Assembly (NCBI GenBank): GCA_943331005.2 | Contig: CALQJX020000005.1 | Coordinates: 1 to 64,000 of the forward strand | Source of the DNA: Bordetella parapertussis | GTDB lineage: Bacteria > Bacteroidota > Bacteroidia > Chitinophagales > Chitinophagaceae | Reading direction: 5' to 3' | Length of the DNA: 64,000 nt | Part shown: positions 34,949 through 45,020 of the stretch, in pieces | Position numbering within the stretch: position 1 is the stretch's first letter | Layout of the letters: the number at the start of each line of letters is the position of its first letter | Made by a program: the position numbers and the translations under genes | Notes under the pieces: generated by a model | Databases searched by the model: none | What the model saw: the letters and a program-made list of their open reading frames with translations, nothing else | What the model was told of the DNA's origin: nothing

Positions 34949-34984
34949 GGGTGTAAAAGTAGGCTATTTTAAGAGAACGATTTT

Positions 34985-35129
34985 GAGAGCGGGAAAGAGA
35001 GCGAGAAGGTGAGAAAGAGTGCGGGAGCGGAGAGCGAAAGGCGAGAAAGAGTGCGGAGAGCGAAAGGCGAGAAAGAGAGCGGAGTGCGAAGAGCGAAAGG
35101 TGAGAATGAGAGCGGAGAGCGAAGAGTGT
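34985..35129. repeat. purine-rich degenerate tandem repeat
   Basis: About four imperfect copies of a 26-33 bp unit of the form GCGAGAAAGAGTGCGG-AGAGCGAAAG. The plus strand is almost purely A/G with isolated C and T. A 7-bp subunit (GAGAGCG / GAGTGCG / AAGAGCG) seems to underlie it. It occupies the gap between lgt and the HTH gene, both on the minus strand. Confidence 0.8.
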
Positions 35130-35159
35130 GCCAGCCGGTAGGGAGGCAGGTGTTGTAAT

Positions 35160-35195
35160 TATTGCTCTGTTTTATTGTTCTGTTTTATTGCTCAG
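35160..35195. repeat. short 13-bp tandem repeat
   Basis: ATTGCTCTGTTTT, ATTGTTCTGTTTT and a partial ATTGCTCAG follow each other directly, just 3' of the HTH gene on its strand. Confidence 0.6.
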
Positions 35196-35251
35196 TCGGG
35201 TGTTGATTATCAGGGGGGAAGTGTGTTTTTGGGGGTGATTGTTGCTCACTG

Positions 35252-36019
35252 CTATGCGGCGGCGGTGCGGGCTGGTGCGGGCTGGTAGAGGTGGCGTATA
35301 TGCTCGTCTTGCCGGCGGAAATCTTCGAGTAACTGGTTGTAGGGTGGTGGTGTGTGCCTGCGGGTAGCGGCATCGTCTATTTTGGCGGAAAGGGTGACGG
35401 GTGTGCGCTGTGTGGTAGTATGGGGTGTTTGACGTGTTTGCTGCGTTTGATTTGTTTGCGCTGTTTGCTGTGCCTGTTGTGCCCTTGCCTGTTCTTCGGC
35501 TTCGTAGCGAAGATCGAGCTGGTGTTCGGCTTCGGCTTCTTCGGGGGTGGGTGGTGCAGCAATATGACCGGGTACTGCGGCTGATATGGCTGCACCTGCT
35601 GCCAGGTAACTATTGACAAATGGGGTAACGGCAGCGGCAACCTCTGGTGCGGTAGCATGCAGGGAGTGCAGGAAGGTATTGAACAGTTCCATGTTCTCGC
35701 TGAGGGTGGCGCGGTTCTTTAGTTTGCTGATTGTTACGGTGAGCTTGTGGATGGTCTCGGCCTCTTTGTGGCTGAGGAGCACATCTTTGCGCTCGGGCGA
35801 AAGTAGCTGCTCGGTATAGTTTGCCAATATGTGGTAGCAGTTCTCTGCTATGGCTACGGGCATTTGGGAGGCGCATTGTTTCTGAAATTCCCAGTTGTGC
35901 TCTTTGATCCAATGATGGAGGGTGCGGCGGGGAATGCCGAGGGCATTGGCGATCTCTGTTTTGGTGAGATCTGTCTGGAGGAAGAGTTTGCGAGCTTTGG
36001 TTTGCTGTTCTACGTTCAT
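35252..36019 (-). CDS. orphan helix-turn-helix protein, terminase-small-subunit-like
   Basis: A 255-residue protein. Residues 1-45 form a helix-turn-helix (TKTEIANALGIPRRTLHHW) followed by KEHNWEFQ, the pattern of phage terminase small subunits and related YjcR-type proteins. A helical middle region (about 50-150) follows. The C-terminal third is low complexity, rich in Gln, Thr, Ala and Arg (QAQQTAQTNQTQQTRQT), and probably disordered. No portal, capsid, large terminase or integrase lies nearby, so there is no prophage here. DNA binding is supported; its target and role are unknown. A minus-strand TAATTTTA upstream (36076-36083) resembles a -7 element. Confidence 0.75.
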   Translation of the reverse strand: MNVEQQTKARKLFLQTDLTKTEIANALGIPRRTLHHWIKEHNWEFQKQCASQMPVAIAENCYHILANYTEQLLSPERKDVLLSHKEAETIHKLTVTISKLKNRATLSENMELFNTFLHSLHATAPEVAAAVTPFVNSYLAAGAAISAAVPGHIAAPPTPEEAEAEHQLDLRYEAEEQARAQQAQQTAQTNQTQQTRQTPHTTTQRTPVTLSAKIDDAATRRHTPPPYNQLLEDFRRQDEHIRHLYQPAPARTAAA

Positions 36020-36328
36020 GGTATAGTGTTTTGCTGCAACAACGGCAAGGCGGCTGCAAGGTGAAAAAAGGGATGTAAAATTAGAACGGGAACTACTGCG
36101 TAAGTGCAGCGAGGGTGAAATTGTGGATATGTTTTTGGATGGGGGCGCCTATTTACGAAAAATATTTTGAATAAAATAGAGTAAAAGTACCTGTTTGTAT
36201 TATAAAATTTATGTTTTAATTTTATGAAAGGAAAATGCAAACAAAGCAAACTGCTATATGAATGCTGATTTCTGAATTTTGAAAACAAACAACACCTTAT
36301 TTCTTCACCAAGAAAAACAAATGAAACT
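36020..36328. other. AT-rich intergenic region upstream of beta-roll module 1
   Basis: It separates the divergent HTH gene and beta-roll gene. The right half is strongly AT-rich. I see no gene, clear promoter match for the plus strand, or hairpin. Confidence 0.5.
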
Positions 36329-38428
36329 ATGTCTTTTAACACTGTCTGGGATCCTTCACTAGTAGGACTCACAACACAGCGCGCAGACAATGGCGCTACT
36401 TTTTTTGCAGGAACAGTTACCGGTGCGTTTTCCGCAGTGCTCGGTGGGCCTATGGCTCCCGGTGTGCCGGGTGGAACAAACACCGTTGATGCTGATGGCT
36501 CTACCATAGTGAATGGAGCTAATAATGTAATAAATATTTTTTCTGCCGGACCGCCAGTAATTCGTGGTATTTACAATCTGATAGGTAATGGACAAGATAA
36601 TATGCTTGCCGGGTCGTTATCTACAATTCTGAACGGACAACAGAATAATATACTGGGAACAGCCTCTGTAATAACCGGCGGTGTACTCAACTGTATCAAC
36701 AACAATACTGATAATAGTGTTATTGGTGGAGGTACAAATAACGCAATAGGAACAGTGGGCCCGGGCTTTTGCTCTGTGAATCACGGTTTCATAGGAGGCG
36801 GAGAAAATAATTCTATAGCCAGTACTGCAGTTGCAGGCGATACGCATAATGCTATTGTAGGTGGCAGCAACAATGTGATAAATGCCGGTGCCCGCAATAG
36901 TTTTATTGGTGGCGGAGATAACAATAATACAGGCAATATTTTTTCTACTGTAGTAGGCGGAGCCAACAATGCTGCACTGGATCAGGGAGCAACAGTTACA
37001 GGCGGTCTTACCAATATTATACGTACCGGTCAGTCTGCATTTATTGGAGGCGGTGCTAACAATAGTATAGATGGTGCGGTATCGGGTATTTCATCAGGCA
37101 GCACAAACAGTATATTCAATGCTTCTAGAGCCAGTTATATAGGTGGTGGAGAACATAACGAGATAGCTACCGCAGGATCTGGTTTCAGCGTAATGTTCAG
37201 TGTAATTGGCGGCGGCGATAACAATGTTATTCGGAGTGTAAGCGCAGCAGGCGATCATAATGTTATTGGTGGTGGATTTTTTAATGAAATCTGTGATAAT
37301 TCATTTAACACATCTATACTGGGTGGTAGCAATAACCATGCACAAGGCACTTCTTCATTTATAGGTGGAGGTACCCAGAACTTTTCCTTAAGTGACGGTG
37401 CAACAGTATCTGGTGGTTTGGGTAATAACGTGAACCTTAACAGTGCCGCTTCTTTTATAGGTGGTGGCGGATCGAACGCCGTATGCGGTGTATTTAATGC
37501 TATAGGTGGCGGACAAGGTAATGGAATCACAAACACCTCTATGAATAGTTTTATAGGTGGTGGTGCCTTTAACTTTATAGGAAACCCTACTACAACACCT
37601 GCCAGCAACCCAAGCAATTATAGTTTCATTGGTAGCGGACAGTTTAACTGTATCAACACCAACAATATTAGTAATTCCACTTTCAATAATGTTGTGGGTG
37701 GCTGCCGTAACACCATACAGCCCAATAGTCAGTTCAGTTTTATAGGCACAGGTGAGTGTAACAGTGTACAGGATATGGGTAACCAGATAGTAGGTGGTAA
37801 TAAGAACTATGTGGATGGTATTTATAGTATTATAGGCAGTGGTAACCTGAACAAAATAGATGTAACCAGCGCAGGTGCTCTTGTGGGCATGAATGGAATA
37901 TTTGCAGGTAATGAAAGTTGCATATGCGGAGAATCATCCTTTAGCGGCATAGGCGGCGGCGGCAAGAACATGGTAGAATGCGGATACGCATCTTACATAG
38001 GTGGTGGTGACTGGAACTGCATATACCCAAGCCCAGGTGGCAGCTACAGGCTTTACCGCTCGTTCATAGGTGGTGGCTTCCAGAACTGTATAGAAAGTAA
38101 CAACTCTGTGATAGCTGGCGGTATTAACAACTCTATACTAACAAGCAGCGCAGATTCAAGCGTAATTGCCGGCGGTACTAATAATGTGGTATCTGGATCT
38201 TGTTCGACTATACTTGGTGGACAAAACAATAATGATGGTGGTTTTAATAATGTGTTTATAGCTGGTAGTGGGATAACAGCTGTGAATGCAAATTCATTAC
38301 ATGCTAACGGATTGTGGCTGGACACTACCACTATCCCTGCATTTGCTGGATTTCCAGCCCCATTTATTGCGGGAACAGTATATGTTGACACGTCTGTTGG
38401 TGCTTGTAGAGCCTTAAGATTGGCATAA
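36329..38428 (+). CDS. beta-roll repeat protein 1 (YadA-head/LbR-like IGGG rungs)
   Basis: A 699-residue protein made almost entirely of short rungs of the form (S/T)-[FVY]-IGGG-x-x-N-x-[IV], 14 of them with exact IGGG and about as many variants (VGG, AGG, LGG, IGSG). The rung pattern resembles the left-handed beta-roll of YadA-type adhesin heads and the VGGGxxNTASG proteins of environmental bacteria. A non-repetitive N-terminal cap (1-60) and C-terminal cap (GSGI...NSLHANGLW, about 640-699) are shared with the second copy at 40.8 kb. No signal peptide or T9SS tag is visible. Rungs near the N terminus use NG instead of GG (LIGNG, ILNG). An NHL-propeller T9SS gene starts 11 bp after the stop. 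Surface fibre or adhesin is inference. Confidence 0.82.
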   Translation: MSFNTVWDPSLVGLTTQRADNGATFFAGTVTGAFSAVLGGPMAPGVPGGTNTVDADGSTIVNGANNVINIFSAGPPVIRGIYNLIGNGQDNMLAGSLSTILNGQQNNILGTASVITGGVLNCINNNTDNSVIGGGTNNAIGTVGPGFCSVNHGFIGGGENNSIASTAVAGDTHNAIVGGSNNVINAGARNSFIGGGDNNNTGNIFSTVVGGANNAALDQGATVTGGLTNIIRTGQSAFIGGGANNSIDGAVSGISSGSTNSIFNASRASYIGGGEHNEIATAGSGFSVMFSVIGGGDNNVIRSVSAAGDHNVIGGGFFNEICDNSFNTSILGGSNNHAQGTSSFIGGGTQNFSLSDGATVSGGLGNNVNLNSAASFIGGGGSNAVCGVFNAIGGGQGNGITNTSMNSFIGGGAFNFIGNPTTTPASNPSNYSFIGSGQFNCINTNNISNSTFNNVVGGCRNTIQPNSQFSFIGTGECNSVQDMGNQIVGGNKNYVDGIYSIIGSGNLNKIDVTSAGALVGMNGIFAGNESCICGESSFSGIGGGGKNMVECGYASYIGGGDWNCIYPSPGGSYRLYRSFIGGGFQNCIESNNSVIAGGINNSILTSSADSSVIAGGTNNVVSGSCSTILGGQNNNDGGFNNVFIAGSGITAVNANSLHANGLWLDTTTIPAFAGFPAPFIAGTVYVDTSVGACRALRLA

Positions 38429-38439
38429 GTGAATTGGTC

Positions 38440-39795
38440 ATGAAATTATTATTGTTATTTTTCTTGTTAACTGCGAAACAGCTATCAGCTCAGCTTATCT
38501 GTACATATGCCGGTGTAGGAACGATGGGTTATTCCGGCGATGGCGGACCTGCTTCCGTAGCTGAATTGTCAAAGCCAATTGGGCTATACATTGACGAAAA
38601 TGACAATTTATTTGTTTGTGGTCATAGTGTAATCAGAAAAGTAAATTTGAATACAGGTATTATTACTTCGATAGCAGGTGCGAGTACTTCGTCTTTGGGA
38701 GATGGCGGACCAGCTACCGCAGCCTTGGTAAATGATCCGAGATCGATTTGTGCAGACCGAGCAGGCAATCTTTACATAGCCGACTATTGGGCGTGTACTA
38801 TAAGGCGGATAGACAAATCAACACAGATTATTAATTCGTGTGTGGGAGTGCTGTCAAATCCAGGCTATTCAGGAGATGGTGGACCCGCAATAAGTGCAAA
38901 AATAAATAGCGTTTTTGCGATTTGTATTGATACAGTATCAAATTTCCTTTACTTGACCGATACTTACAACTTTCGAATAAGAAAGGTGAATTTGACAACT
39001 GGCAATATATCTACTATAGCAGGTACAGGGACAACAGGGTATTCTGGCGATGGAGGATTGGCTACAAGTGCTCAAATAAGCAGGGCTATTGGCATTTGTC
39101 TTGATAAATATGGCAATGTGTATCTTGGTGATTGGGATAATTCCCGTGTGCGTAAAATTGACATTACAACAAATGTAATTTCAACATTTATTGGGAACGG
39201 TATATCTGGCTATGACGGCGATGGAGGACCTGCTTTAGCTGCCCGGATATCACAACCAAGTGGTATGTGCTTTGACTCCTGTGGCAACTTCTACTTTTCT
39301 GATGGAGGAATAGGAGGTGGTAACTATCGGATTAGAAAAGTAGATGCAGAAACCAGAGTTATTTCAACAATAGCAGGCAATGGCACTCAGGGTTACTCAG
39401 GTGATGGTGGATTAGCAACAACTGCACAGTTTTCAAGAACAAATGGAATATGTCTGGATAAAAAAGGGAATTTATACGTTGCTGACATAGATAACCACCG
39501 AGTGAGGAAAATAAAGTCAGAAGAAGCTTCTTGTTATTCGATATCAAGCATTAATGACTTTGCTTTATCAGACCAATTATTAATTTATCCCAATCCAGTT
39601 GGAGAATCATTTATAATAAATGCAAATTATGAAATCCAAAAAGTGGAAGTCATTAATTCTATTGGACAAGTGGTGAAACTTCTCAAGTTGCAACTTATAT
39701 CGAAAGAACAAGAAGTAAATACATCATCACTCTCCCCCGGCCTGTACATAGTACGGGTAAATGATACTTGGATGGGGAAGTTTTTAAAAGAATGA
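38440..39795 (+). CDS. NHL-repeat beta-propeller protein with T9SS sorting domain (copy 1)
   Basis: A 451-residue secreted protein. The signal peptide is MKLLLLFFLLTAKQLSAQ. Six NHL-type blades (about 20-365) each show an IAG.GT.GYSGDGG.A start, a GIC.D..GN.Y.(A/G)D centre and an (I/V)RK(I/V) end. The C-terminal type A T9SS sorting domain (about 375-451) begins LLIYPNPVGESF and ends GLYIVRVNDTWMGKF. Such propellers bind proteins or glycans; no catalytic residues are evident. An in-frame TTG 6 bp earlier is ignored because the ATG opens the signal peptide. Only 11 bp separate it from the beta-roll gene, so the two are almost surely cotranscribed. Codon use looks more AT-rich than in neighbouring housekeeping genes. 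Confidence 0.88.
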   Translation: MKLLLLFFLLTAKQLSAQLICTYAGVGTMGYSGDGGPASVAELSKPIGLYIDENDNLFVCGHSVIRKVNLNTGIITSIAGASTSSLGDGGPATAALVNDPRSICADRAGNLYIADYWACTIRRIDKSTQIINSCVGVLSNPGYSGDGGPAISAKINSVFAICIDTVSNFLYLTDTYNFRIRKVNLTTGNISTIAGTGTTGYSGDGGLATSAQISRAIGICLDKYGNVYLGDWDNSRVRKIDITTNVISTFIGNGISGYDGDGGPALAARISQPSGMCFDSCGNFYFSDGGIGGGNYRIRKVDAETRVISTIAGNGTQGYSGDGGLATTAQFSRTNGICLDKKGNLYVADIDNHRVRKIKSEEASCYSISSINDFALSDQLLIYPNPVGESFIINANYEIQKVEVINSIGQVVKLLKLQLISKEQEVNTSSLSPGLYIVRVNDTWMGKFLKE

Positions 39796-39857
39796 CGTTT
39801 GCAGTAAATATTATACAATTAGTATTGATAAAACATTATTGAAATAAATACCCAAAA

Positions 39858-40778
39858 ATGAAAATAGTATTCCAGGTAAGTGGCGGAATAGGCAAGAGCA
39901 TTGCCGCCACGGCAGTATGTGCTGCCATAAAGAAACAATACCCACAGGCTGAACTGATAGTGATATCGGGCTACCCTGACGTATTTGCCCCTAATCCCAA
40001 TGTGGCAATGTCACTCGATTTCAGTAATCTCAATTACTTCTACCCTCAGCATATAGAGGGCAGAAATACCAGGTTGCTGCTGCAAGACCCGTATAACAGT
40101 GAGGATTTTATATACCAGCGCGGTCACCTGATAGAGAACTGGTGCCATATGAACGGTATAACCTATAACGGTGAGTTGCCGGAGCTATATCTGACATCGA
40201 AGGAAAAGACACAGTATGCACCCATGTTTGCATCGAACAAACCTATACTGGCTATGCAGACAAATGGCGGTATATCGCCGCAGGGCGATAAATACTCGTG
40301 GCCCAGAGATATGCCTATAGCCACGGCACAGGCTGTTGTAAATGCTTTAGCGCAAGACTATAATATAGTGCATATAAGAAGGCAAGACCAGTTGGGGCTG
40401 CAAGGGGTATACCCTGTGCAGGCCGACTTCAGGGCTCTGGCAGTGCTGATAAGCATGACGGCTAAGCGACTGTTCATAGACAGCTTTGCGCAGCACACTG
40501 CTGCTGCGCTGGGGCTGCCATCGGTGGTGTGCTGGGTTGCCAATACACCATCTCAGTTTGGCTACAAGATGCACACCAATATAGTAGCTAATGCACCTAC
40601 CATGAAGCCGGAACTGCGCCACTCTGTTTTTAGTAAATACAACATTACCGGTCAGGTAACTGAATTTCCGTACGGGAGCGAAGATGAGATATATAATGTA
40701 GATGAAATAATAGAGGCGGTTCGTACTTGTCCGCAATCTGTGGTATCGGTGGCGAAAAATGAAATCATTTTGAATTAA
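39858..40778 (+). CDS. GT9-like (heptosyltransferase-related) glycosyltransferase
   Basis: A 306-residue soluble protein with the two-Rossmann GT-B layout of glycosyltransferase family 9. MKIVFQVSGGIGKSIAATAV is the N-terminal glycine loop. The second half has QTNGGISPQGDKYSWPR (donor-binding region start), VHIRRQDQ and FIDSFAQHTAAALGLPSVVCWV, the latter matching the FxGxDSG..H.A.A.G.P.V conserved in LPS heptosyltransferases. It is shorter than typical GT9 enzymes (about 340-360). It stands between the two beta-roll/NHL modules (62 bp after the first, 47 bp before the second), not among LPS genes. A role in glycosylating the module proteins is inference, suggested by adhesin heptosyltransferases of the Aah/TibC type. 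Confidence 0.8.
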   Translation: MKIVFQVSGGIGKSIAATAVCAAIKKQYPQAELIVISGYPDVFAPNPNVAMSLDFSNLNYFYPQHIEGRNTRLLLQDPYNSEDFIYQRGHLIENWCHMNGITYNGELPELYLTSKEKTQYAPMFASNKPILAMQTNGGISPQGDKYSWPRDMPIATAQAVVNALAQDYNIVHIRRQDQLGLQGVYPVQADFRALAVLISMTAKRLFIDSFAQHTAAALGLPSVVCWVANTPSQFGYKMHTNIVANAPTMKPELRHSVFSKYNITGQVTEFPYGSEDEIYNVDEIIEAVRTCPQSVVSVAKNEIILN

Positions 40779-40825
40779 CGAACTTATTTATTTAATTTTT
40801 ATTCTTTAACTTTAAACAAAAAAAT

Positions 40826-42499
40826 ATGCCCGCTTGTTTTAATGACCCGATTTTTGGACAAACTTTACGTTGCGACCCCGGAGGTAGTGATGTAGGAACT
40901 ATTTCAGCAACAGCTGCCTGCTCATCGATACTGGGAGGCCCGTTTGCAACGCCCGGTACACATACCAACAATGCCGATCTGTCGGCAATTGTGATGGGAC
41001 ACACCAATGCAATAAATATATTTTCTGTACAGCCCGCAGACAATGGTATTTATAACCTGATAGCCAACGGCGGTAGCAATACTGTGGCAGGCTGCCATGC
41101 TACTATTGTGAATGGTATGGACAATAACGTATGCGGACTCTATAACCACATAGGCAATGGAACCGGAAATGTAGTGAGTATATTTGCTACAGGCCCGGAT
41201 GTACATACCTGCTACAGTTATATAGGTAATGGATATGTAAATAAGACCTGCGGTAACTTTTCTACCATTTTGAACGGCAGCAATAACCTGGCTAATACAG
41301 ACCATGCGGCCGTAGTAAATGGTATCAATAATAATGCTACAGGGGTGCTTTCTTTTATAGGGAATGGTGGAGATAATAACATAGCCAACGCAAACTTTGC
41401 GACAAGCGGTTATTCATTTATAGGTAACGGCAACAAACAAAATGCAAATGCTGCGTACTCTTTTATTGGCAATGGATTTGGTAACACAGTTTCTGTAAAT
41501 GGAGACTACAGCTTTATAGGCAATGGCAGAGGCAATAGCATAGATGGTGTGAATGCTGTAATTACCGGAGGTAGCTCCAATTCAATTAACAATTTATCAT
41601 CTGCCAGTTTTATAGGAGGAGGATCGAGCAATAGCGTTGCAAATACTGCTCCCGGTCAATGTCCGTCTACTAACAGCTTTATTGGTGGCGGCGCAAACAA
41701 CATTATTGATACCAATAATTCATCAGGTTCATTTATGAACAGTATTGTTGGTGGTTGTCAGAACACAATACACCCCGGCACTACTTTTGGTGTTATTGGC
41801 GGTGGCTTTTCAAACAACCTGCATGGCACCCAAAATGGTATAGGCAGCGGTTTCAGCAATTTGGTATGTGGTGAATATTCTTTTATAGGCGGCGGAGCAA
41901 TAAACTGCATAGCTACAACAGCATTGCCCAGTTGCGTTGTTGGCAGAAATGGTATATTGTCGGGTTTCTGTAATGAGATAATTGGACAAACATTGTTCTC
42001 CTCAATAACAAGTGGTGGAGAGAATCGTATAAATGATGCATGTACATCCTTTATAGGTGGAGGAGATTACAACTGTATTCAGCCGGGTGGTGGGCCTGCA
42101 ATAGTTTGTCGCAGTTTTATTGGAGGAGGTGTTTCTAACTGTATTTTTGAAAATACAGCTGTCATAGTGGGTGGAGAATGTAATGTGATAAACGCCGGCG
42201 GAACTTGTAGTTTTATAGGTGGTGGTTTCAATAACACAGTATCAGGCCTTACATCATCAATATTGGGAGGACAAAACAATAATGACGGAGGCCTGACCAA
42301 TGTACATATTGTGGGTAGTGGCATAACACTTGGTGCTGGTGTAGGAAATCCGAATTCTTTACATGTAAATGGATTGTGGGCAAACGGTTTGCCAACTTAT
42401 GCAGGTGGACCACCTATACTGCCTGCAGGTACTGTATTTATTCTTGCTCCAGGAACGCCAGCACCTGCTTGGGCGCAGGGTCAGTTGTGGATAGCTTAA
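40826..42499 (+). CDS. beta-roll repeat protein 2 (IGNG then IGGG rungs)
   Basis: A 557-residue paralogue of the protein at 36.3 kb. The N-terminal cap aligns loosely (SSILGGPFATPG..., NAINIFSVQPADNGIYNLIANG). Rungs at about 75-240 are of the FIGNGxxN type; from about 245 (AVITGGSSNSI) they switch to FIGGGxxN. The C-terminal cap (SSILGGQNNNDGG, then GSGI...NSLHVNGLW) closely matches copy 1. No signal peptide, transmembrane helix or T9SS domain is visible. Scattered cysteines (CGLYN, NCI, GGCQN) recur at rung corners. The NHL/T9SS gene copy 2 follows after 11 bp. A likely elongated surface or fibre protein; the export route is unexplained. Confidence 0.82.
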   Translation: MPACFNDPIFGQTLRCDPGGSDVGTISATAACSSILGGPFATPGTHTNNADLSAIVMGHTNAINIFSVQPADNGIYNLIANGGSNTVAGCHATIVNGMDNNVCGLYNHIGNGTGNVVSIFATGPDVHTCYSYIGNGYVNKTCGNFSTILNGSNNLANTDHAAVVNGINNNATGVLSFIGNGGDNNIANANFATSGYSFIGNGNKQNANAAYSFIGNGFGNTVSVNGDYSFIGNGRGNSIDGVNAVITGGSSNSINNLSSASFIGGGSSNSVANTAPGQCPSTNSFIGGGANNIIDTNNSSGSFMNSIVGGCQNTIHPGTTFGVIGGGFSNNLHGTQNGIGSGFSNLVCGEYSFIGGGAINCIATTALPSCVVGRNGILSGFCNEIIGQTLFSSITSGGENRINDACTSFIGGGDYNCIQPGGGPAIVCRSFIGGGVSNCIFENTAVIVGGECNVINAGGTCSFIGGGFNNTVSGLTSSILGGQNNNDGGLTNVHIVGSGITLGAGVGNPNSLHVNGLWANGLPTYAGGPPILPAGTVFILAPGTPAPAWAQGQLWIA

Positions 42500-42510
42500 A
42501 AGTGAGTAGT

Positions 42511-43878
42511 ATGAAATCAGTTTTGAGAATTACATTATTGGTTGTACTGCTAATAATCTCCGCAAATGGTAGAGCACAAACAATAACAACAGTAGCGGGT
42601 AATGGTACTGCAGGTCATAGTGGGGATAATGGAGATGCGGCTACAGCAAGCATATATTATCCAATTCCGGGAGTTTTTGACTCTCGTGGAAGTTTCTATT
42701 TCGTTGAATTTGGTGGTGTTGGGCATAGAATCAGAAAGATAGATGTAGCGGGAGTTATTACAACTGTTGCTGGGACAGCCAGTCCTGGCTATAACGGAGA
42801 TGGTATCTTAGCTACAATTGCTCAATTAAGATCGCCAAGTGCTGTAATTGTTGACTCTCTTGATAATATTTTTATTTGTGACCATGACAACCACAGAATC
42901 AGAAAGGTAGATGTTGTAACTGGGATAATAACAACTGTAGCAGGTAATGGTATACCCGGCTATAGCGGAGACAACAGTTTAGCTACAAATGCACAAATTA
43001 GAGGACCAGCAGATATTTGTTTTGACAAAAAAGGGAATCTATATATTGGTGATGTAAATAATTACAGAGTACGTAAGGTAGATAATTCGGGAATTATTAC
43101 CACATATGCTGGCAATGGGACTAGTGGGTGTGGAGGAGATTTCGGTTTTGCAACAGCAGCTCAAATTTCACCATCAGGTATTTGCGTAGACAACTTGGGC
43201 AATTTGTACATATCAGACGCATCGACAGGTGAAAATAGAATTGCAAAAGTGGATATCACATCCCGAATTATAACAACTGTAGCGGGTACTTGTAGCGGTT
43301 ATATCTATAATGGAGATAATATCCTTGCTACAACTGCCAATATAAACCCCTCCCGGATAAGATTTGACAACTCATACAGTAATCTGTATTTTTCAGATGT
43401 TTTGAACAATAGAATTAGACGAGTTATCTCTACAGGATATGTACAAAATGTTGCAGGTTCAGGAATACAGGGGTTTTCTGGAGATGGTGGTTCGGCATTG
43501 ACAGCGGAATTATTTTATCCATCAGGTTTAACATTTGACTCATGTGGGAATTTGTTCATTGGTGATTCATATAATCACCGCATACGTAAAATAGCTTTAA
43601 ATCCGGACTGCATTCCAATGGCTGTACCAGAAGTAACACAAAGCAAAACAACCAATGCTATCATTTACCCCAACCCAGCTACGGAAAGTGTTACCATCAA
43701 TGCTAGTGTGGCTATAGAGCACATAACTATAAGCAATTTATTGGGGCAAGTGGTACTGGAACAGCACCCCACGGGCGGTAAAAAGAGTGTTGAAGCAACT
43801 GTGCAGCATCTGCCTGCGGGCATATATGTGGTGCGAGTAAATGGCATCTATGCAGGCAGAATGGTGAAGGAGGACTGA
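42511..43878 (+). CDS. NHL-repeat beta-propeller protein with T9SS sorting domain (copy 2)
   Basis: A 455-residue secreted protein. The signal peptide ends near SANGRAQ (residue 23). Six NHL blades (about 24-365) follow the same plan as copy 1 (TTVAGNGTAGHSGD, IRKIDVAGVITTVAGT, CFDKKGNLYIGDVNNYRVRKV). The C-terminal type A T9SS domain starts IIYPNPATESVTIN (about 380) and ends GIYVVRVNGIYAGRM. The frame is open 135 bp upstream into the beta-roll gene, but the ATG at 42511 starts the signal peptide and lies 11 bp after the previous stop. The blades differ clearly from copy 1, so the module duplication is not recent. A long inverted repeat follows the stop. Confidence 0.88.
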   Translation: MKSVLRITLLVVLLIISANGRAQTITTVAGNGTAGHSGDNGDAATASIYYPIPGVFDSRGSFYFVEFGGVGHRIRKIDVAGVITTVAGTASPGYNGDGILATIAQLRSPSAVIVDSLDNIFICDHDNHRIRKVDVVTGIITTVAGNGIPGYSGDNSLATNAQIRGPADICFDKKGNLYIGDVNNYRVRKVDNSGIITTYAGNGTSGCGGDFGFATAAQISPSGICVDNLGNLYISDASTGENRIAKVDITSRIITTVAGTCSGYIYNGDNILATTANINPSRIRFDNSYSNLYFSDVLNNRIRRVISTGYVQNVAGSGIQGFSGDGGSALTAELFYPSGLTFDSCGNLFIGDSYNHRIRKIALNPDCIPMAVPEVTQSKTTNAIIYPNPATESVTINASVAIEHITISNLLGQVVLEQHPTGGKKSVEATVQHLPAGIYVVRVNGIYAGRMVKED

Positions 43879-43895
43879 CAAATGAAATTCTTTTG

Positions 43896-43937
43896 CCAAT
43901 CAACTCAGATACATATCTATGTATCTGAGTTGATTGG
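43896..43937. repeat. 20-bp perfect inverted repeat
   Basis: CCAATCAACTCAGATACATA (43896-43915), a 2-bp spacer TC, then its exact complement (43918-43937). It starts 17 bp after the stop of NHL copy 2. There is no T-run on either side, so it is not a standard terminator, though an RNA hairpin could still stop decay or transcription. Confidence 0.85.
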
Positions 43938-44072
43938 TGGCAGAGGGAACTGCGCCAAGTAATATGTTATTTATACAAACTAAAGTACATTCTTCACTGC
44001 TACAATTTATTTTAACCTTCATCACCCCCTTTTTCTTTATTATTTTTTACTTTCACACTCTCGAAAAATAAC

Positions 44073-45020
44073 ATGAAAAAAGAAAAGGTACTCATTATAG
44101 GGTCAGGTGGCCAGATAGGCGTGGAACTGGCTCTGGCACTGCGCAAGGTGCATGGCACAGACAATGTGATAGCTTCCGACATAAGGGAGGCACATCCTAT
44201 ACTGAAGGACAGTGGCCCCTATGCCATACTGAACGCCATGGATGCCAACGCCATTCTGGAACTGATAAGGAAGGAGGGTGTGACACAGGTGTACCTGCTG
44301 GCAGCAATGCTATCGGCCACGGGCGAGAAAGACCCCAAGCGTGCCTGGGAGGTGAATATGCAGAGCCTGCTGCAACTGCTGGACCTGGGGGTGCAGGAGA
44401 AACTGACAAAAATATACTGGCCCAGCTCTATAGCTGTGTTTGGCCCTACCACGCCGCACCACAACACACCGCAGCAAACGGTGGTGGAGCCCAGAACGGT
44501 ATACGGCATCAGCAAGTATGCGGGTGAACTGTGGTGCCAGTACTACCACCAGCGCTGGGGGCTGGATGTGCGCAGTCTGCGCTATCCGGGCCTGATAAGC
44601 TGGAAGTCGGCACCGGGTGGCGGCACTACAGACTATGCGGTAGAGATCTACCACGAGGCACTGAAGCATAAGAAATACACATCGTTCCTGTCGGAAGATA
44701 CGTACCTGCCTATGATGTATATGGATGATGCGATACGCGGCACCATAGAGCTGATGGAGGCACCTGCCGAGCTGTTGCAGACACGCATGTCCTACAATCT
44801 GTCGGCCATGAGTTTCTCGCCCAAAGAAATAGCGGCTTCTATACAGAAACACATACCCGAGTTTACCATAGACTATGCTCCCGACTTCAGGCAGCAGATA
44901 GCAGATGGCTGGCCCAAGAGCATAGACGACAGCACGGCACGTGCTCACTGGAACTGGAAACACGAATATGACCTGGACAAAATGACGGCAGCAATGCTGG
45001 AGAACCTGAGCAAACAATAA
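44073..45020 (+). CDS. tdh: L-threonine 3-dehydrogenase, epimerase-like (short-chain) type
   Basis: A 315-residue NAD-dependent enzyme of the extended short-chain dehydrogenase fold. The NAD motif GSGGQIG is at 10-16. Catalytic Ser118/Ser119, Tyr144 and Lys148 (YGISK) are present. The long diagnostic segments LRYPGLIS, PGGGTTDYAVEIYHEA, LPMMYMDDAIR, YNLSAMSF and the C-terminal DDSTARAHWNWKHEYDL follow the animal and Flavobacterium type of threonine dehydrogenase closely, not the zinc-dependent E. coli Tdh. It oxidises threonine to 2-amino-3-ketobutyrate. No kbl (2-amino-3-ketobutyrate CoA ligase) gene is adjacent. Monocistronic with a strong terminator. Confidence 0.9.
   Translation: MKKEKVLIIGSGGQIGVELALALRKVHGTDNVIASDIREAHPILKDSGPYAILNAMDANAILELIRKEGVTQVYLLAAMLSATGEKDPKRAWEVNMQSLLQLLDLGVQEKLTKIYWPSSIAVFGPTTPHHNTPQQTVVEPRTVYGISKYAGELWCQYYHQRWGLDVRSLRYPGLISWKSAPGGGTTDYAVEIYHEALKHKKYTSFLSEDTYLPMMYMDDAIRGTIELMEAPAELLQTRMSYNLSAMSFSPKEIAASIQKHIPEFTIDYAPDFRQQIADGWPKSIDDSTARAHWNWKHEYDLDKMTAAMLENLSKQ

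Follow-up and report, generated by a model that had tools for sequence, protein, structure and literature searches.

A roll, NHL propeller and glycosyltransferase gene unit that recurs in Bacteroidota chromosomes, with roll–glycosyltransferase counterparts in viral contigs

The closest described counterparts of the locus analysed here are units of tailed phages in which a glycosyltransferase (GT) gene of the same family directly follows a tail-fibre gene. They occur in viral contigs (L054-L133) and in the isolated Pelagibacter phage HTVC112P (gp48-gp49), where the start of the gene annotated 'putative glycosyl transferase' is the last base of the 'putative tail fiber' gene. In the TibC/AAH autotransporter heptosyltransferase systems, a heptosyltransferase-fold GT-B enzyme adjoins a repetitive, beta-rich, surface-type protein (TibA or AIDA-I). 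In WaaC, the Asp of the SSIGD motif is the presumed catalytic base. TibC glycosylates autotransporters, with Asp-110 as catalytic base and residues 1-97 as an N-terminal barrel, as described in PMC4358343. Further likenesses are to the heads of YadA/UspA1-type trimeric autotransporters, in repeat type, and to T9SS-secreted NHL propeller proteins of Bacteroidota, in NHL repeats, signal peptide and type A sorting domain.

Our locus lies in a stretch of 64,000 nucleotides (the window) and holds two pairs of genes, each encoding an IGGG-repeat protein (roll) and an NHL propeller protein (Table 1). A sequence-only reading had described it as a duplicated two-gene module with a GT gene between the copies, and had proposed a surface filament or adhesin. 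All five open reading frames (ORFs) are present where it placed them, and 11 bp separate the roll stop from the NHL ATG in both pairs (38428/38440 and 42499/42511). These ATG starts, rather than the TTG (38434, NHL-A) and GTG (42376, NHL-B) of the mechanical ORF list, agree with the signal peptides. The claimed N- and C-caps common to the two rolls were also found, the rolls being 42% identical across the best 441 columns of their alignment. The two NHL proteins are alike in domains as claimed (NHL/TEN_NHL repeats and Por_Secre_tail in both, by Pfam) and 37% identical across 438 columns.

Clean duplication of the module is, however, contradicted by homologue ranking. With self counted first, Roll A and Roll B are mutually third match, while the NHL proteins rank much lower for each other: NHL-B comes only 15th when NHL-A is the query, and NHL-A 26th when NHL-B is. 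Simple tandem duplication of the pair was rejected. The 11-bp spacing proved local to the window: ORF-list gaps in relatives vary between 1 and 104 bp, and the two ORFs seem to overlap where the listed start is too far upstream. The GT does lie between the pairs, but as a member of the unit and not as a bystander, and roll and GT also recur together in phage contigs. No GT follows NHL-B, and home-made HMMs detected no methyltransferase or sulfotransferase in the window.

Table 1. Positions of the features discussed, numbered along the window
Feature	Coordinates	Strand	Basis
Roll A: 699-aa IGGG-repeat protein	36329..38428	+	ORF; no visible signal peptide or T9SS tail
NHL-A: NHL propeller protein with signal peptide and T9SS type A sorting domain	38440..39795	+	PF01436/PF25021/PF18962 (Pfam), TIGR04183
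GT: 306-aa GT-B enzyme, GT9-like fold, GGIGK where ordinary GT9s have SSIGD	39858..40778	+	
Roll B: 557-aa IGGG-repeat protein	40826..42499	+	ORF; no visible signal peptide or T9SS tail; predicted model
NHL-B: second NHL propeller protein, T9SS sorting domain	42511..43878	+	Pfam, NCBIfam-type domain matches, alignment to NHL-A
Segment with no DNA match in the relatives examined	34970..44010	.	Insertion between Lgt-type gene and epimerase gene; edges approximate

Within Bacteroidota, the genes for roll, NHL-T9SS protein and GT recur together as one unit. The genomes examined were MAGs. A scan of genome contigs for the GT gave 53 loci, 52 of them titled Bacteroidota or a subgroup and one (L050, on a 4-kb contig) Gammaproteobacteria; the 17 genomes carry 1-4 GT matches each, fragments included. 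The genes usually stand in the order roll, NHL-T9SS, GT, to which some loci add an FkbM methyltransferase and a sulfotransferase (12/35 and 13/35, respectively, where more than 1.8 kb was available downstream). Where full-length GT genes have over 4.5 kb of sequence upstream, an NHL-T9SS gene stands within 1.2 kb in 21 of 25 and a roll within 4.5 kb in 21 of 25, compared with an NHL-T9SS gene upstream of 8 of 175 unlabelled ORFs in the same loci. On adjacency the sequence-only reading is supported: roll and NHL-T9SS genes adjoin in a large number of MAGs from Bacteroidota, and the GT accompanies them. The exceptions at 4.5 kb are L016 and L020, each the second GT of a tandem; L034, with its NHL gene on the opposite strand; L008, with no NHL gene; and L001, L003 and L035, with no recognised roll. 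Rolls were labelled by a regular-expression count, and NHL, T9SS, sulfotransferase and methyltransferase labels came from home-made HMMs seeded with 10, 10, 8 and 4 proteins from the same loci; Pfam was applied to the two NHL proteins of the window, one methyltransferase, one GT-methyltransferase fusion and two sulfotransferases. Such fusions, with GT and FkbM methyltransferase in one ORF, occur in L015, L016, L020, L021, L026, L029, L035, L036 and L072. Between NHL and GT genes there are also small ORFs with a coiled-coil-like start and short IGGG repeats (L006:9516-9776, L011:864-1157, L013:709-960).

The association was also approached from the roll side, with an N-cap profile (A4, 21 rows) that rolls with other N-termini escape. 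It marked 22 places in 13 of 17 genomes, 15 of the 22 being its own seeds; in 19 of the 22 a GT is encoded downstream, on the contig and strand of the roll. The contig breaks off too soon at two places, and an NHL gene follows the roll in 19 of the 20 that can be judged, the exception being L008, a seed. Of the seven places outside the seed set, five allow a judgement, and each of these has the NHL gene; a GT follows in four, and in the fifth the contig ends first. In chromosomes, therefore, rolls normally have an adjacent NHL gene. The further claim, that the pairing was kept through divergence as a sign of cognate partners, was not supported. Across 32 cassettes, the distances computed for the roll N-cap and C-cap, the NHL protein and the GT correlate only weakly (rho 0.04-0.24), and the weak NHL-roll correlation argues against tight matching of the two proteins.

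In viral contigs, roll and GT recur without the NHL gene, often with a sulfotransferase. The GT profile matched 95 contigs, and the best 80 of the 95, near-identical contigs among them, are 40-63% identical. An IGGG roll lies upstream of the GT in 42 of 58 testable loci and is absent in 16, and a sulfotransferase follows the GT in 72 of 79. As in the chromosomes, these rolls are without a signal peptide. The rule of an adjacent NHL gene, which holds in chromosomes, fails here: an NHL-T9SS gene occurs at 1 of 58 GT loci. That locus, L072, has a chromosomal-type cassette, its neighbours match PHROG helicase and ATPase families, and the contig may be a phage. Neighbouring genes of the 80 loci were grouped by BLAST, with one representative of each cluster identified by PHROGs; APS-kinase-like genes are found at 59 loci, nucleotidyltransferase genes at 53, endolysin genes at 18 and genes for a sheath-type protein at 17. 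Besides these tail sheath and endolysin genes, other neighbours match tail tube and baseplate hub. The chromosomal cassette differs from the phage units in having the NHL-T9SS gene between roll and GT and in having no tail genes seen around it; the window cassette is flanked by Lgt-type and epimerase genes. As a separate observation, the sulfotransferase of viral loci is followed by APS-kinase-like, nucleotidyltransferase and DUF2061 genes (for example, L076:12659-13763; the APS_kinase Pfam match is from L076), possibly a phage route to activated sulfate. If the GT modifies the roll, the nearness of sulfotransferase and APS-kinase-like genes in many viral loci would bear on how phages decorate their fibres.

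The counterparts in annotated phages are more distant. In HTVC112P the GT has only 25.5% identity across the part that matched, and the pattern does not recognise the fibre as an IGGG roll. Two annotated phage records (L134, L135) have the GT and no IGGG roll by pattern, and a search of 50,697 phage records with the Roll B sequence gave no match; the link to phages therefore depends on the IMG/VR contigs and on comparison of models. The predicted monomer model of Roll B (pLDDT 77.5) had no Foldseek match in the PDB at E 0.001. In BFVD at the same threshold it had seven matches, six of Caudovirales and one of Klosneuvirus, the best being proteins of uncultured Caudovirales phages (E 8.9e-10).

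The GT has the predicted fold of heptosyltransferases, that is, of WaaC/WaaF-type GT-B enzymes including TibC, when models are compared. It matched no Pfam family at E 0.1, hence not Glyco_transf_9, and only a weak heptosyltransferase match, far under the cut-off, was obtained from NCBIfam. Six GT9 proteins from the same genomes, the ones passing a motif filter out of twelve loci fetched, were used for comparison; GGIGK aligns with their SSIGD (hhalign probability 72, 56 columns), placing Lys where they have Asp. This Lys, K13, is invariant in 46 of 46 GT rows. Residue 1 of the GT model aligns with residue 97 of TibC, so the N-terminal barrel is absent. Membership of the BAHT family was rejected on the missing barrel, the lack of room for an iron finger in 306 aa and the Lys for Asp, which also set the enzyme apart from TibC/AAH; likewise its putative substrate, the roll, has neither the signal peptide nor the autotransporter barrel of TibA/AIDA-I. 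Sugar transfer in the cytosol, as by TibC/AAH, may nevertheless offer a parallel. Homologues at E 0.001 number 673, the best 120 of which are 56-89% identical (the homologue lists cover the best 120 of 1136 and the best 120 of 673). Absent from Pfam, the family seems to be a marker of fibre-modification units, in Bacteroidota chromosomes as well as in tailed phages.

The route by which the roll could reach the surface bears on the filament or adhesin proposed earlier. That explanation would have the roll exported by an unrecognised signal and capped or anchored by its own NHL protein, with the GT decorating the roll or the surface. It draws on the tight pairing of roll and NHL genes, on the presence of T9SS (SprA_N in 17 of 17 genomes) and on the weak match of Roll A to the UspA1 head 3pr7 (E 1.1e-6). 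Unlike YadA/UspA1, the rolls themselves, which like the GT match no Pfam family, lack a signal peptide, and Pfam finds no membrane anchor domain in them. By a home-made model the T9SS tail is present in 0 of 35 chromosomal and 0 of 72 viral rolls. A signal-peptide-like start, scored by a hydropathy rule and not by a trained predictor, is found in 2 of 30 chromosomal rolls (L034 and L047, whose listed starts are possibly wrong; a looser cut flags 6 of 30) and 0 of 53 viral rolls, against 48 of 53 NHL proteins of relatives. The NHL proteins show both T9SS cargo traits tested, the signal peptide and Por_Secre_tail, and differ from other T9SS-secreted NHL proteins in being tied to a phage-type roll and GT. 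A conserved roll without a signal peptide, encoded beside T9SS cargo, presents a secretion puzzle. With these counts, the absence of roll-NHL co-divergence and the phage relatives of the roll-GT pair all speaking against it, we consider the surface filament unlikely.

Our preferred reading takes the segment for a phage-type cassette, carried in the chromosome, for fibre glycosylation. Our confidence is high that the cassette is of the phage fibre type, moderate that the GT acts on the roll, and low for the surface step; we favour the full five-step reading tentatively, at a little short of even. Counting against it are the Lys at the position of the presumed catalytic Asp, the 16 of 58 viral GT loci with no roll upstream, the two annotated phage records with a GT but no IGGG roll by pattern, and the weak NHL-roll correlation. 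The roll and GT stay together in chromosomes and viruses, which makes the roll the likely substrate of the GT. The roll would be fibre-like and, as with phage fibres, its synthesis and folding would take place in the cytoplasm, where the GT would add a sugar; in some cassettes the methyltransferase and sulfotransferase would modify it further. What the chromosomal form adds is the NHL protein, and this is the component expected at the surface: from what is known of its family, the propeller would pass through Sec and T9SS to the outside. The finished roll might leave by a non-Sec route, perhaps lysis, and the propeller might then retain it on the producing cells or their kin, where it would form an adhesive, glycosylated surface coat. 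That roll and GT stand side by side in viruses, with the NHL gene almost always missing there, suggests bacterial reuse of a fibre kit from viruses, probably at the cell surface. If the GT does modify the roll, then fibre, enzyme and surface partner are a compact testable set for phage fibre decoration and its cellular reuse. A more elaborate version is rather unlikely in our judgement. It sees a domesticated phage tail-fibre kit, a virus-free cytosolic fibre that is glycosylated, sometimes methylated and sulfated, with a T9SS-displayed propeller as partner, the whole making up a fibre-receptor system, shuffled and in multiple copies, that would serve kin recognition, post-lysis coating or deception of phages.

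Could the rolls instead serve as fibres for a resident prophage, a tailocin or a contractile injection system that the same genome encodes at another locus? They are fibre-like and without a signal peptide, and their viral relatives adjoin sheath genes. The sheath family PF17482, the one family searched, was however above its cut-off in 0 of 17 genomes and under it in 3 of 17, and an NHL-T9SS partner is not a phage part. This explanation seems improbable to us, and a contractile-tail fibre was rejected as the main reading.

The surroundings of the cassette bear on two remaining alternatives. The Lgt-type and epimerase flanks are on one contig in 5 of 17 genomes. They are about 0.2 kb apart in G001 and G003 and about 0.7 kb in G013; in G008 they are 8.7 kb apart with unrelated genes between, and in G012 45 kb apart in a different arrangement. 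With this site empty or otherwise filled in relatives, it is variable and the cassette has been inserted there; cassettes are also inserted at differing sites, with their parts shuffled. Such a site, and a roll-GT pair common to phages and hosts, would suit an anti-phage device in which a cytosolic phage-type fibre hinders incoming phages from assembling, or a receptor is masked or imitated by the NHL protein. The window neighbours are mostly housekeeping-like genes, however, and PADLOC matched none of the five cassette proteins, so that a known defence system was rejected for them (its one match was the HTH gene described below, to mad1 of mads_1, E 7.5e-6); we think such a role very unlikely. 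Equally hard to credit is a decaying mobile leftover with no cell function, to which the variable site, the short 5' GT fragments (matched over residues 1-101 or less) of L046 and L048-L053, several directly after an NHL gene, the loci without an intact roll (L001, L003, L035) and the split roll of L020 would point, as most cassettes are intact in order and the GT is 55-79% identical to that of the window over 24 aligned relatives, with many invariant residues.

The fibre-glycosylation cassette was followed further through the GT tree, where 41 chromosomal rows and L072 form a clade (99/95); chromosomal L043 falls outside it and groups with a viral row on long branches. When rooted with GT9 proteins on thinned rows (31 of 122 dropped, mostly near copies, also long-branch L043 and L133), the chromosomal clade lies within viral rows (90/85). 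The outgroup branches are very long and the root is weak, and the direction of transfer that this tree would imply between viruses and chromosomes is suggestive only.

Several smaller features accompany the insertion. Just past NHL-B is a perfect 20-bp inverted repeat with a 2-base loop (43896-43937), which may be a terminator or a mark of the cassette end. Near the other edge, inside the inserted segment, an HTH protein is encoded on the minus strand (35252-36019) with weak matches to terminase small subunits and phage DNA-binding proteins (phrog_4151, E 4.4e-17), and short purine-rich direct repeats (35006-35123) adjoin its gene. In G008 the same junction (L189:1864-4691 against window 44010-44142) has three copies of the epimerase promoter and start, as if the 5' end of the epimerase gene had been duplicated by repeated insertions.
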